Below, piece after piece: positions 16,235 through 20,114 of a stretch of DNA of 64,000 nucleotides. Where the stretch lies: assembly GCF_029626225.1 (NCBI RefSeq), contig NZ_JARUBP010000001.1:2480001-2544000 (forward strand), written 5' to 3'. The DNA comes from Asanoa sp. WMMD1127. GTDB lineage: Bacteria; Actinomycetota; Actinomycetes; Mycobacteriales; Micromonosporaceae. Position 1 is the first letter of the stretch. Each line of letters opens with the position of its first letter. The translations under genes were made by a program, and so were the position numbers. Under the pieces are notes generated by a model. That model did no database searches and was not told the DNA's origin. It was given only the letters and a program-made list of their open reading frames with translations.

Positions 16235-16747
16235 TCACTGCGAGTTTGCGGTGACCTTCCACTTGGTCGTGATTGCCCGGCCCTGGCAACTGTCAGGGGC
16301 AGTGCCATCGAGCCAAACCGCGTCCAGCACGCGAATGGTTGCAGTGCCGTCCTTCGGGATCGAGATGCTGCCAGTGCTGCCGCCCGAGCCGTTGTCGATA
16401 ACGATCGGTTCAGCCAGGTTCAGGGCTTCCGCGCAAGTCGTCCCTCCGCCGATGGAGAGAAGAGTGTTGACGACGTCGGCGCTAGTGACCGTCACGCCAA
16501 CCTCGTTCTCATTCGTCACCGGGATGATGATGCTTGCCTTGTGGTTGTCGCCCGACCACAGCTGAGTTTCCTCGTTGGCGTAGTCGATGGTCACCGTCCC
16601 GACGGTCAGCGGCTCCATCTGGGCTGCGGCGCCTTCGACTGGGCCGGTGGTGAAGAAATCGCTGAACGCGTAAGCGACACCGCCTGCGGCGAAGACGCCG
16701 GCGGCGGCGAGGGTGGCAGCGAGGACTCGCTTCGAACGCTTCTGCAA
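16235..16747 (-). CDS. Exported TasA/camelysin-like protein, paralogue 1
   Basis: 170 residues. A Sec signal peptide (basic KRSKRV, hydrophobic LAATLAAAGVFAAGGVAYA) is followed by FSDFFTTGP, like the start of mature camelysin/TasA-type proteins; the rest looks like a beta-sandwich with two Cys (TTCAEAL and SCQGRAI). The segment LDAVWLDGTAPDSCQG matches paralogues 2 and 3 (LDDAV...CQG, VEDAV...CQG). TTG 16747 is chosen because GGAG lies 7 nt upstream; longer starts would precede the signal peptide. Divergent from the other members. Possibly a surface-fibre subunit; function unproven. Confidence 0.7.
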   Translation of the reverse strand: MQKRSKRVLAATLAAAGVFAAGGVAYAFSDFFTTGPVEGAAAQMEPLTVGTVTIDYANEETQLWSGDNHKASIIIPVTNENEVGVTVTSADVVNTLLSIGGGTTCAEALNLAEPIVIDNGSGGSTGSISIPKDGTATIRVLDAVWLDGTAPDSCQGRAITTKWKVTANSQ

Positions 16748-17350
16748 GGGAGGTCTCCTAGTGCGTGCCGGCGTCCGGGCCGGCGAAACTTCATGGCGGG
16801 TGTCGCGGACAAACCAGGTGTTTTCGACCGGCTGCGGCGACGTAGGAAACTCTGCCCCAAGGCGGCGAGATTGCGGCATAGAGAACACGGTTTGTGGTTG
16901 TTCGCCGACAAGAGATCGCAATGCGCGGACCGGATGACCCCGAATAGGTGACCCCTTTGGAACGCGACAAATGCTCGTCGTGAGCACGCCTATTGGTCAT
17001 GAATAAAGCGTCCCCGAGCATCGGAACGATTTTGCAAAACCCCAGGTCAGGTGCCTCGGCGAGTCGGCTTGGCACGTGTGCTAGCGCCACGTTTTCGCAG
17101 TTCAGAGCCTATCTACAGCGCGCCGAACCAACACGAAACGGGCTTAACGGGCATATCGGGTCACTCTAAGGAGTTAAGCCGTCAGGCTTTACCTGGGCTA
17201 TTTCAGCACAACAAAGGTCGGACATTTGCTTGCTTGAGGTTAATGAGGGATCTCGGCAAAGTTGTCGTCGGGCGCCGGACCCGCCTCCACCGGGCCGGCG
17301 CCGACATAAAGAGCAACGCTTTCGCCCGTACCTTTGAAAGGGATTCCGCC
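16748..17350. promoter_or_regulatory. Long A+T-richer intergenic control region
   Basis: About 600 bp without a credible gene, visibly richer in A+T than the rest of the window, between divergent exported-protein genes. Contains a perfect 8-bp inverted repeat GGCTTAAC (17141-17148) / GTTAAGCC (17173-17180). An AAAGGGA ribosome-binding site precedes the ATG at 17351. Its length and composition suggest a regulated promoter region; no known operator was recognised. Confidence 0.45.
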
Positions 17351-17797
17351 ATGCGCACGTTCACCAAGCGGACCGCATCCGTCGCCATCGCCGCCGCCGT
17401 CATCCTGGGGGCGTCGAGTGCCGCTTGGGCGTGGTGGGAGTTCAGCGGCCGGGCCACCGTCGAGGCCTCGGCCGCATCGATCAAGCCGATCGAGGTCGAC
17501 ACGCGGGACGTCAACGGCCTCTACCCGGGTGCGGAGAAGGACCTGCGGGTCGAGATCTACAACCCGAACCCGTTCCCGGTCGTTATCACTGAGGCCGAGG
17601 CGACCGTCCGCACCGAGGCCGGACCCCGCTGCGGTGACGCGATCACCGTGGAGCTCCCGGACCGTCCCGTCCGGGTCGAGCCTGGCCGCAAGTCCTACAC
17701 CCTCGACGACGCCGTGCGGATGGACGAGAGCGTGACGCGCTGCCAGGGCGCCGACTTCAGGGTGGTCATTTTCTATCGAGGCCAGAACGCGGCCTGA
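17351..17797 (+). CDS. Exported TasA/camelysin-like protein, paralogue 2
   Basis: 148 residues. Signal peptide (MRTFTKRTASVAIAAAVIL, ending near AAWA) followed by WWEFSGRATVEASAASI; then a beta-rich domain with two Cys (RCGDAI and RCQGADF). The stretch LDDAVRMDE then CQGADFRVVIFY parallels paralogues 1 and 3, so all three derive from one ancestor. LYPGAEKDLRVEIYNPNPFPVVI resembles the strand pattern of ribosomally made fibre or pilus subunits. First gene of a four-gene co-directional run. No signal peptidase of the SipW type is present in the window. Confidence 0.72.
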   Translation: MRTFTKRTASVAIAAAVILGASSAAWAWWEFSGRATVEASAASIKPIEVDTRDVNGLYPGAEKDLRVEIYNPNPFPVVITEAEATVRTEAGPRCGDAITVELPDRPVRVEPGRKSYTLDDAVRMDESVTRCQGADFRVVIFYRGQNAA

Positions 17798-17869
17798 TCG
17801 ACGTCGGCGGGTGGCGTGGCTGGTTCGGCCACGCCGCCCGCCGAGCCAGAAAAGAACGTAGGAGCGTCC

Positions 17870-18358
17870 ATGCGCAACATGTCCCAGCGCGCCGCCGTCA
17901 TCACGCTGGTCGCCGTCATCGTGGCCGGCATCGCCAGCGTGGCGTGGGCGGCCTGGTCGGTCACGGGCCAGGGCACGGCGACGCTGTCCGCGGCCGAGGT
18001 GACCGCCCTGCAGGCGACGGCCCGGCCGACCGGGAGCCTCTTCCCGGGCGGCACGGCGGACATCGAGGTCAGCGTGACCAACCCGAACGAGTTCGCCGTC
18101 GAGGTGCAGTCGTTCGCGCAGGACCCGCAGATCGTCGTCGACCAGGCGCACGCCCAGGCCGGTTGCACGGCCGGCAACGTGCGGCTCAAGGCCACGAAGA
18201 AGCCGATCGCCAAGCGGGTCGAGGCCGACGGCGGCCGCCAGACGTTCGTGGTCGAGGACGCGGTCGAGATGGTCTACAACGCGCCGGAAGCCTGCCAGGG
18301 CGCGTCCTTCGAGATCACCCTCGCCCTCGCCGGCGTGGGCCTGCCGGACTCGGCATGA
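17870..18358 (+). CDS. Exported TasA/camelysin-like protein, paralogue 3
   Basis: 162 residues. Signal peptide (MRNMSQRAAVITLVAVIVA, ending near SVAWA) then AAWSVTGQGTATLSAAEV; core with LFPGGTADIEVSVTNPNEFAV, almost superimposable on LYPGAEKDLRVEIYNPNPFPV of paralogue 2. Two Cys (AGCTAGN and EACQGASF) could form a disulfide outside the cell. GTAGGAGC lies about 5 nt before the ATG. Gene 72 bp downstream of paralogue 2, same strand. Confidence 0.72.
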   Translation: MRNMSQRAAVITLVAVIVAGIASVAWAAWSVTGQGTATLSAAEVTALQATARPTGSLFPGGTADIEVSVTNPNEFAVEVQSFAQDPQIVVDQAHAQAGCTAGNVRLKATKKPIAKRVEADGGRQTFVVEDAVEMVYNAPEACQGASFEITLALAGVGLPDSA

Positions 18359-18462
18359 CGCCAACGGTGCGCGCCCGTCAGCCGCGCGATCCCGGTTCGA
18401 TCCCGATCCGGATGCCCTACCTCCACCGTCCGGATCATCGGTGCAGTCATGAAGGTGAACAA

Positions 18463-19638
18463 GTGAAGAAACTGATTGCCACCTCTCCCGCCGTGCTTGG
18501 TGGGATCGCGGCCGTGGCCGTTGTGGCGGGTGCCGGCGCGGCGCTCGCCGCCTGGCGTGTGCAGAGCGACGAGGTCGTTCTGACCGCGGAGACCGCCACG
18601 CTCTCGCCCGGCAACAAGCCCGCCGTCACCGCCGACGGCAACCTGGTCACCGTTTCCTGGAAGCCGAACTCGTTCGGTGAGCGCAAGGTCGACAGCTACC
18701 GCATCCAGCGCTACGACCTGGCCGGCGCCGTGCAGCAGCCGCGGGGCAGCTGCGAGGAGAACGTGGCCAAGGAGTCCTGCACCGACTCGGGCGTGCCGAC
18801 CGGCTCGTGGCGCTACACGGTCGTGCCGGTCAAGGGCGGCTGGACCGGGCCGGAGAGCGCCAAGAGCGACGCGGTGATCGTGGCCGAGGACGGTAAGGCG
18901 ACGGTGATCCCCGACCCGGTGGCCGACAAGACGCAAGGCCCGGCGGCCGGTCCCGCGGTGGTCAAGCTGGGCGACCCGGCCGACGCCGCGCCACCCGCGC
19001 CCGGCGCGCCGCCCAAGTGGACGCTGCAGCCCGGCGGCGACGGGGTGCTCGGCACCGACGACACGCTGACCTACGTGGGTGGGGACCCGATCGACCCCAA
19101 GACCATCATCGAGGGCTGGGACGGCGGCAAGCGCCCGGTCATCGTGCAGGCCACGGCCGGCGACCCGGCGGTGCTGACCGTCGACGACGGCAGCGTCCGG
19201 GTCTTCGGCCCCCTCGCGGTGCCGGCGGCGACGGTACCTGCCGACGTGGCATATACCGCCACCCTGGCCGCGATCAACGGCCGGATCGTCGTCACCCTGG
19301 GCGCCGTCAAGGTTCCGCCCAGGCAGGAAGCAGCGCCGACCACGCCGCCCACCGCGGACGCCGACACCCCACCCGCGACGCCCGAGGCGACCGCGCCGGG
19401 CCCCGACCCGGATCCGGACCCGACGACCGCTCCGGCCACGCCCGACGACACGCCGAGCGCCACCGAGTCGACCGGCGGCGACCAGCCGGCCAGCACCGAC
19501 GAGACCCCGGCCGAGGGACAGCCGGAGACGCCGGCGACCGACCCGGCGGCCTCCGACACGCCGCCGGCCGCCGAGGTGACGCCGTCGACGGCCGGTGAGA
19601 CCAGCGAGCCCGCCGTGGTGCTCGTCGCCGCGACATGA
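18463..19638 (+). CDS. Large exported protein with FN3-like domain and Pro/Thr-rich tail
   Basis: 391 residues. A signal-anchor-like N-terminus (KKLIATSPAVLGG, then a hydrophobic stretch ending ALAAWRVQSDEVV) echoes the AW junction of the paralogues. Residues about 45-125 look like a fibronectin-III fold (NLVTVSWKPNSF, VDSYRIQRYDL, SWRYTVVPVKGGWTGPES) with a Cys pair (SCEEN, SCTDSG). A second beta-rich domain follows to about 290, then a tail rich in Pro, Thr, Asp and Glu. No LPXTG or terminal anchor helix. GTG 18463 has GAAGG 7-11 nt upstream. May be the adhesive or tip partner of paralogues 1-3. Confidence 0.68.
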   Translation: MKKLIATSPAVLGGIAAVAVVAGAGAALAAWRVQSDEVVLTAETATLSPGNKPAVTADGNLVTVSWKPNSFGERKVDSYRIQRYDLAGAVQQPRGSCEENVAKESCTDSGVPTGSWRYTVVPVKGGWTGPESAKSDAVIVAEDGKATVIPDPVADKTQGPAAGPAVVKLGDPADAAPPAPGAPPKWTLQPGGDGVLGTDDTLTYVGGDPIDPKTIIEGWDGGKRPVIVQATAGDPAVLTVDDGSVRVFGPLAVPAATVPADVAYTATLAAINGRIVVTLGAVKVPPRQEAAPTTPPTADADTPPATPEATAPGPDPDPDPTTAPATPDDTPSATESTGGDQPASTDETPAEGQPETPATDPAASDTPPAAEVTPSTAGETSEPAVVLVAAT

Positions 19639-20114
19639 GCGAGGCGGCCGGTGAAGAACCGACGACCCGGGAACTCACCGGCCGTAACCTGGCGCCCGCT
19701 CCGTCCGGTGTACCAAACGTGCAGTTCACCCCGAAAAAGGTCCTCGCGCTGATCCTCGGGCTCGGCCTGCCCATCGTGGTCTCGGTCGGCTGGGCGCTCG
19801 GCCAGCGCGGGGTCACCGGCACCCCGCCCGGCGGGTCGGGCGCGATGGGCGCGGCACCGCACGAGCAGGTGCCCTCGCCGGCCGCGCAGTACGACGTCTA
19901 CAACGAACCGCCGGTGATCGTGCCGATGGCCAGCGCCTCGGCCGCCGCCACACCGACCCCGGAGCCGGAGGCGCCCCGGACGACCGCCGACCCGCGGCCG
20001 CACCCGACGACGCCGCCGACCGTGCTTCCCGAGGACCAGACGCCGAGCCCGGAGCCCAGCCCGAGCGACCCGGAGCCCACCCCGGAGGAGCCGAGCACCG
20101 AGACGGACGGATAA
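19635..20114 (+). CDS. Membrane-anchored protein with Pro-rich extracellular tail
   Basis: 159 residues. Short cytoplasmic N-terminus to about 33, one membrane helix (VLALILGLGLPIVVSVGWALG, about 36-56), then an outward tail rich in Pro, Glu, Asp and Thr (TPTPEPEAPR, SPEPSPSDPEPTPEEPS). It starts inside the stop of the FN3-like gene (ATGA), so the two are surely co-expressed. A spacer or anchor role for the exported cluster is plausible. No catalytic motif seen. Confidence 0.65.
   Translation: MSEAAGEEPTTRELTGRNLAPAPSGVPNVQFTPKKVLALILGLGLPIVVSVGWALGQRGVTGTPPGGSGAMGAAPHEQVPSPAAQYDVYNEPPVIVPMASASAAATPTPEPEAPRTTADPRPHPTTPPTVLPEDQTPSPEPSPSDPEPTPEEPSTETDG

Follow-up and report, generated by a model that had tools for sequence, protein, structure and literature searches.

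This report concerns a cluster of five genes, gA to gE, in a 64,000-nucleotide stretch of DNA from Asanoa sp. WMMD1127 (contig NZ_JARUBP010000001.1, positions 2,480,001 to 2,544,000; the whole stretch is called the window). Our analysis indicates that three of the encoded proteins, gA, gB and gC, are members of one actinomycete family of small secreted proteins. This family is unnamed in the annotation libraries that we searched. The reading we put forward, which we judge to be evenly poised between right and wrong, is that the cluster encodes a secreted, SipW-independent, TasA-like donor-strand surface fibre module in which gD would be the initiator or adhesin. A preliminary description of the locus had offered a surface fibre as a hypothesis, and its claims are discussed below with the results that bear on them.

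The family of short secreted paralogues

The three short paralogues are gA (16235-16747, minus strand, 170 amino acids), gB (17351-17797, plus strand, 148 amino acids) and gC (17870-18358, plus strand, 162 amino acids). Compared as mature domains, gB and gC match each other with a blastp expectation value (E) of 7e-17, a score that none of 500 shuffles reached. The match between gA and gB (E 9e-4) was likewise reached by 0 of 500 shuffles, and that between gA and gC (E 0.001 over 23 residues) by 4 of 500. A protein of locus L054 bridges the more distant pair in a single pass, matching mature gA at 9e-14 and mature gC at 2e-8, and iterated profiles, which take in their own rows, join the three as well. 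The claim of three paralogues in the preliminary description is upheld by these comparisons, with gB and gC related beyond chance and gA linked to them as a distant member through L054 and the gA-gB shuffles. The two cysteines noticed in all three proteins proved to be invariant across a 47-row alignment of the family, in which the L, P and G of LxPG, one Asn and one Phe are nearly so. Signal peptides and cleavage sites of the window proteins were assigned by eye, without a predictor, as AYA-FSDF in gA, AWA-WWEF in gB, AWA-AWSV in gC and ALA-AWRV in gD. The LxPG motif reads LYPG in gB and LFPG in gC, and the CQGAxF end that was thought to be common to the three is found in gB (CQGADF) and gC (CQGASF) but not in gA, which has LDAV...CQGRAI.

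In relatives the cluster includes a fourth short paralogue, gX, which has decayed in the window. It is intact in three of the six Asanoa genomes (L038:7822-8268, L041:8658-9140 and L042:7111-7608). At the same place in the window, between gC and gD (18359-18462, plus strand), there is a remnant of it in which 16 of 18 residues are identical at 18364-18417. At the DNA level, identity is 73% across an alignment of 179 columns that contains a single 29-base gap (E 6e-31); it spans 18351-18500 and so runs from the last bases of gC into the first of gD. L040 holds a fainter remnant, and several clusters in relatives include gX. Nine gX-type proteins from four genera form one clade with support of 100/100; a tenth, doubtful row (L053) was placed elsewhere.

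All six Asanoa genomes carry gA, gC, gD and gE, each time flanked by the same GNAT and transporter genes, with gC as the best conserved short subunit. Five of the six have gB; an apparent start of the gene is all that is left in L041, and the gB of L042 shares only 36% identity with the window gB and lies outside its tree group. Relatives of gC were found in 55 of 200 Micromonosporaceae genomes (10 of 44 genera), and those in A. ishikariensis and A. siamensis are 89% and 85% identical. The family profile matched 28 of 394 genomes of the class, representing 21 of 138 genera. These genome counts are lower bounds because only part of the candidates in each genome was scored. Two to seven members are carried by 21 of the 28 family-positive genomes, often side by side, and in various actinomycete genera the short paralogues again have gD as a neighbour. 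Relatives of gE, sought in 41 loci, were found only in the six Asanoa; gA-like genes stand singly in L054-L056, and clusters without a gA-like gene are known in other genera. The notion of a strictly five-gene, co-conserved cluster was therefore only partly sustained: the five open reading frames (ORFs) are present and the short paralogues recur with gD, but relatives have gX as a further short paralogue, gE relatives are confined to Asanoa among these loci and gA-like genes also occur alone. A scan of viral contigs with gC gave no relative.

Four paralogues in other loci (L046:9965-10468, L048:7314-7883, L050:8317-8820 and L057:10102-10551) have an extra stretch before the hydrophobic segment, which is Arg-rich in L046 and L050 (EEPTWEVREPRRRRFDRRS); these proteins are possibly membrane-anchored base subunits. 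As a separate observation, an ORF near two family genes in genome G501 (L103:3046-4427) has GLNYRLALDLGTNSIGWSM near its start and in this resembles the beginning of a Cas9 protein.

In the literature on TasA, camelysin and SipW in actinomycetes and on Actinoplanes or Asanoa surfaces, as represented by titles and the openings of abstracts, we found no published description of the family. The available part of PMC13251363 concerns Actinoplanes sortase substrates and has no link to it.

Relation to TasA and the partner protein gD

For comparison with TasA we used actinobacterial PF12389 proteins, as 21 mature domains or as a smaller set of ten. A profile built from ten such proteins gave a match to the fibre structure 8aur with an E of 1e-9 and also matched 5of1. 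Profile-profile comparison of the mature family with the 21 TasA domains gave local/global values of 75/81% with 47 family rows, 81/85% with 88 and 90/91% with 108. The corresponding values for the same three sets were 3.5/9%, 25/14% and 66/45% against DUF11, and 5/1%, 49/18% and 52/25% against NPCBM_assoc. Reversed family sets remained below 1% in this comparison, and the family reached 10% with its own reverse in another. The scores were 31-40 with the 21 TasA domains, 27 with the ten, 11-31 with DUF11 and NPCBM_assoc and about 16 with reversed sets, and the TasA match is collinear over the mature domain. When signal peptides were included in the profiles the value rose to 94%, which we discounted because signal peptides alone can align. 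By these comparisons TasA/camelysin is the nearest known family, though a remote one, ranking above DUF11 and NPCBM_assoc in every set compared. Outside the window, the Asanoa sp. WMMD1127 genome has three consecutive DUF11 matches in one open frame (C1:3298908-3300002).

The accessible portion of PMC9674648 describes TasA fibres as assembling through an N-terminal strand, residues 28-38, that enters the next subunit, and the corresponding portion of PMC10151520 places F29 and P62 in the 'proline box', the most conserved protomer interface. In our alignment with 8aur, the fibre chain has F29 as its second residue, the proline of LKPG is P62 and Q232 lies in the C-terminal FEATQW. The N-terminal aromatic and the LxPG proline of the proline box are both kept in the family. 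One of the first two mature positions is aromatic in 36 of 37 non-gX rows, compared with 1 of 10 gX-type rows, these positions having been placed by alignment with gC and not by a predictor. Camelysin also raises the thought that the short paralogues are proteolytic or regulatory secreted proteins with no relation to fibres, which we regard as highly improbable: no HExxH-type motif was seen by eye in gA, gB or gC, and none of them gave a Pfam peptidase match.

The partner protein gD (18463-19638, plus strand, 391 amino acids, GTG start) is an FN3/Ig-type secreted protein with a Pro/Thr-rich C-terminal tail, and is our candidate adhesin or initiator. A profile of its N-terminal domain matched in 29 of 41 family loci and in 0 of 55 control loci; its training set took in 23 of the 29, and the family loci amount to 535 kb against 179 kb of controls. 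Across 388 genomes, the 11 strongest matches (E 9e-17 or better) all lie at most about 1.3 kb from a family gene, and four of these genomes (G201, G221, G266 and G294) are outside the training set. At 1e-5 the profile matches 103 of the 388 genomes, those beyond the top 11 at 1e-11 or weaker, and weaker matches in G211, G233 and G234 also adjoin a family gene. Judged by these matches, gD and the short paralogues occur together. No Pfam fn3 match over the cut-off was found in gD; the ten homologues scanned gave one weak fn3 match (L100, E 0.006, under the cut-off), Big_13 over the cut-off in L085 and Laminin_G over the cut-off in another. A gD homologue at L098:2175-4481 (minus strand) has a C-terminal Laminin_G_3 domain. 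The Trp at mature position 2 of gD is nearly invariant among homologues, and the N-termini of gD reach scores similar to the family ones, with a mean of 3.8 (22 scored of 27) versus -14.6 (standard deviation 8.4) for 703 background ORFs.

A number of results weigh against a TasA-like fibre. Membership of gA, gB and gC in PF12389 was rejected, as no match to that profile was listed for them at E up to 1 and none was found in their own genome at 1e-3. The ten-domain TasA set lowered the values to 20-40%, Micromonosporaceae rows alone gave 54-64% to TasA versus 1-16% for the controls, and random halves of the family ranged from 43 to 82%. TasA itself reached 34% to DUF11 and 49% to NPCBM_assoc; the likeness is in part a general Ig-like LxPG motif, as the 66% of DUF11 with the loosest set also indicates. 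Judged by eye in the alignment with 8aur, the family has no clear counterpart of Gln232, and gA of the window has LWSG, with S for P, where most members have LxPG. When solved structures were searched with the family as a profile, only weak, unrelated matches and no TasA came back, the best being a laccase (E 0.006) in an alignment that starts in the signal-peptide region. With respect to gD, no more than 11 of the 28 family-positive genomes have a strong match. Only 8 of the 22 scored N-termini lie above the 99th background percentile, window gD not among them, and with positions 1-2 left out 13 of 22 lie above the 95th; six of the rows in this test are Asanoa, and for four of these the site that was scored is implausible. 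Finally, gB is absent from one Asanoa and gX from three, and therefore neither is indispensable. The hint of TasA/camelysin in the preliminary description consequently survives as a remote likeness, carried by the profile-profile match and by two kept interface positions but not by a PF12389 match.

These results leave room for an alternative without polymerisation, in which the short paralogues would be monomeric, disulfide-stabilised Ig-like envelope proteins that bind gD or a wall polymer. We consider this possible, while giving it the smaller part of our belief. The sequence holds no proof of assembly, gA-like genes stand alone in L054-L056 and there is some Ig-like similarity to DUF11 and NPCBM_assoc; yet the family profile favours TasA over both in each set, the N-terminal aromatic stretch is common to the short paralogues and gD, and most family-positive genomes carry several members, often adjacent. 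We put the chance that the cluster proteins assemble into a fibre at about even.

The variable gA, signal processing and flanking genes

The gene gA starts with TTG, preceded by AGGAG at 7-base spacing, and is divergent from gB, gC, gD and gE, which are co-directional. Divided at the presumed cleavage site, which was placed by eye, it has a signal peptide coded by 16667-16747 and a mature domain coded by 16238-16666, both on the minus strand. Among the six Asanoa the signal peptide is on average 81% identical (73-92) and the mature domain 30% (24-40). Comparison identities in the same genomes are 74% for mature gC, 84% for the FN3 region of gD, 82% for the GNAT protein and 87% for the transporter. 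At the DNA level the upstream 250 bases are 76% identical, the signal coding part 84%, the mature coding part 47% and the GNAT gene 83%. The pattern is reversed in gB (five genes, one of another type), with 36% in the signal peptide and 60% in the mature domain. The gA tree has two groups, one of which includes the L055 protein from another genus. The simplest reading of these figures is fast change or replacement of an exposed gA domain, and gA may be a hypervariable surface subunit. One could go further and propose that gA is a variable secreted ligand for recognition between strains or against phage, and that gB, gC and gD merely display it. The low identity of mature gA beside flanking genes at 82-87% speaks for this proposal, but gC and gD are far better conserved than gA and other genera have clusters with no gA-like gene, and we consider it improbable.

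Between gA and gB, upstream of gA, a non-coding block (16876-16912, no strand assigned) is well conserved in an alignment of all six Asanoa and is a possible regulatory element. A WhiG/FliA-type promoter in this block was considered by eye and set aside as unsupported.

The signal peptides end in the usual AxA site, and therefore signal peptidase I is the likely processor. The earlier statement that no SipW-like peptidase is nearby now extends to the whole genome: the genome-wide check that had been suggested was run, and none of three TIGR02228 matches was over the cut-off. A SipW-type place was located within 5 kb of PF12389 in at least 24 of the 30 actinomycete genomes with PF12389, and, among the matches listed, within 5 kb of the present family in 0 of 28 genomes.

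All five ORFs lie where the preliminary description had placed them, and the ATGA overlap that it read as coupling gD to gE is present. The last gene, gE (19635-20114, plus strand), codes for 159 amino acids, with about 37 residues, one hydrophobic span recognised by eye and then a Pro/Thr-rich tail. No Pfam or NCBIfam model was above the cut-off for any of the five proteins. The genes flanking the cluster are ordinary: one flank encodes tRNA_SAD, hydrolase, DUF2516, YjbR and GNAT proteins, and the opposite flank a NIPA/EamA-like transporter, an S51 peptidase, YbjN and a glycosyltransferase. No sortase domain was found in nine flanking proteins at 1e-5, in line with the earlier remark that no sortase is nearby, and no LPxTG-like end was seen by eye in gA-gE.

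Proposed assembly and comparison with known systems

In the mechanism that we propose, the proteins would be exported by Sec and cleaved by ordinary signal peptidase I at A-(W/Y)-A, which would free an N-terminal strand led by an aromatic residue. This strand would enter the beta-sandwich of the next subunit by donor-strand exchange, its aromatic packing on the LxPG turn as F29 packs on P62 in TasA, and the two cysteines would pair as an internal disulfide. With its similar N-terminal stretch and FN3/Ig body, gD would start or end the fibre in the manner of TapA and give adhesion. A cap could be provided by gX, which is without the aromatic strand, a membrane base in Asanoa by gE and an exposed, fast-changing subunit by gA. 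The full scheme is offered more tentatively than the fibre module itself, and we lean against it as a whole: a widespread mixed actinomycete fibre of SipW-independent, disulfide-locked, TasA-related subunits joined by donor-strand exchange. In it, an FN3/Ig adhesin with a donor strand of the same kind would start or tip the fibre, a paralogue lacking the strand would cap it, and a hypervariable subunit on display would keep its signal peptide from species to species while its mature domain is replaced.

In Bacillus, TasA fibres form the scaffold of biofilms, and PMC10151520 reports homologues from further bacteria and from archaea. If our reading is correct, a SipW-free TasA relative would extend donor-strand fibres to filamentous actinomycetes, a large group of antibiotic producers, would offer a way to study how hyphae or spores adhere, and would account for a family left blank by the libraries searched. 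With its hypervariable gA domain, the surface fibre would then allow diversifying pressure, for example from phages, to be tested directly.

Among known systems, sortase-assembled pili differ from this cluster, which has neither an LPxTG-like end nor a flanking sortase domain at the thresholds given above. Archaeal bundling pili would have the proposed assembly principle alone in common with it; their protein AbpX matches the actinobacterial TasA profile weakly (E 0.1), and the present family itself has no match there. The chaplins and rodlins of Streptomyces, as far as the available descriptions of them go, are likewise actinomycete surface proteins with several homologous genes, a likeness by description only. 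TapA offers a parallel for gD at the level of description: PMC9674648 and PMC10151520 describe TapA as having an Ig-type body of its own and an N-terminus like the one found in the fibre subunit, and gD shows both traits, its body being Ig-type as judged by pattern and homologues but FN3/Big-like. The actinobacterial PF12389 proteins with SipW belong to the same class and co-occur with the present family in 7 genomes, on different contigs. The family departs from TasA and camelysin in being shorter than TasA, in its two invariant cysteines, in signals that end in AWA or AYA and in having several paralogues per cluster. It resembles them as a set of small exported proteins with an aromatic at mature position 1-2, an L-x-P-G turn with an Asn-containing strand after it, and QG near the C-terminus.

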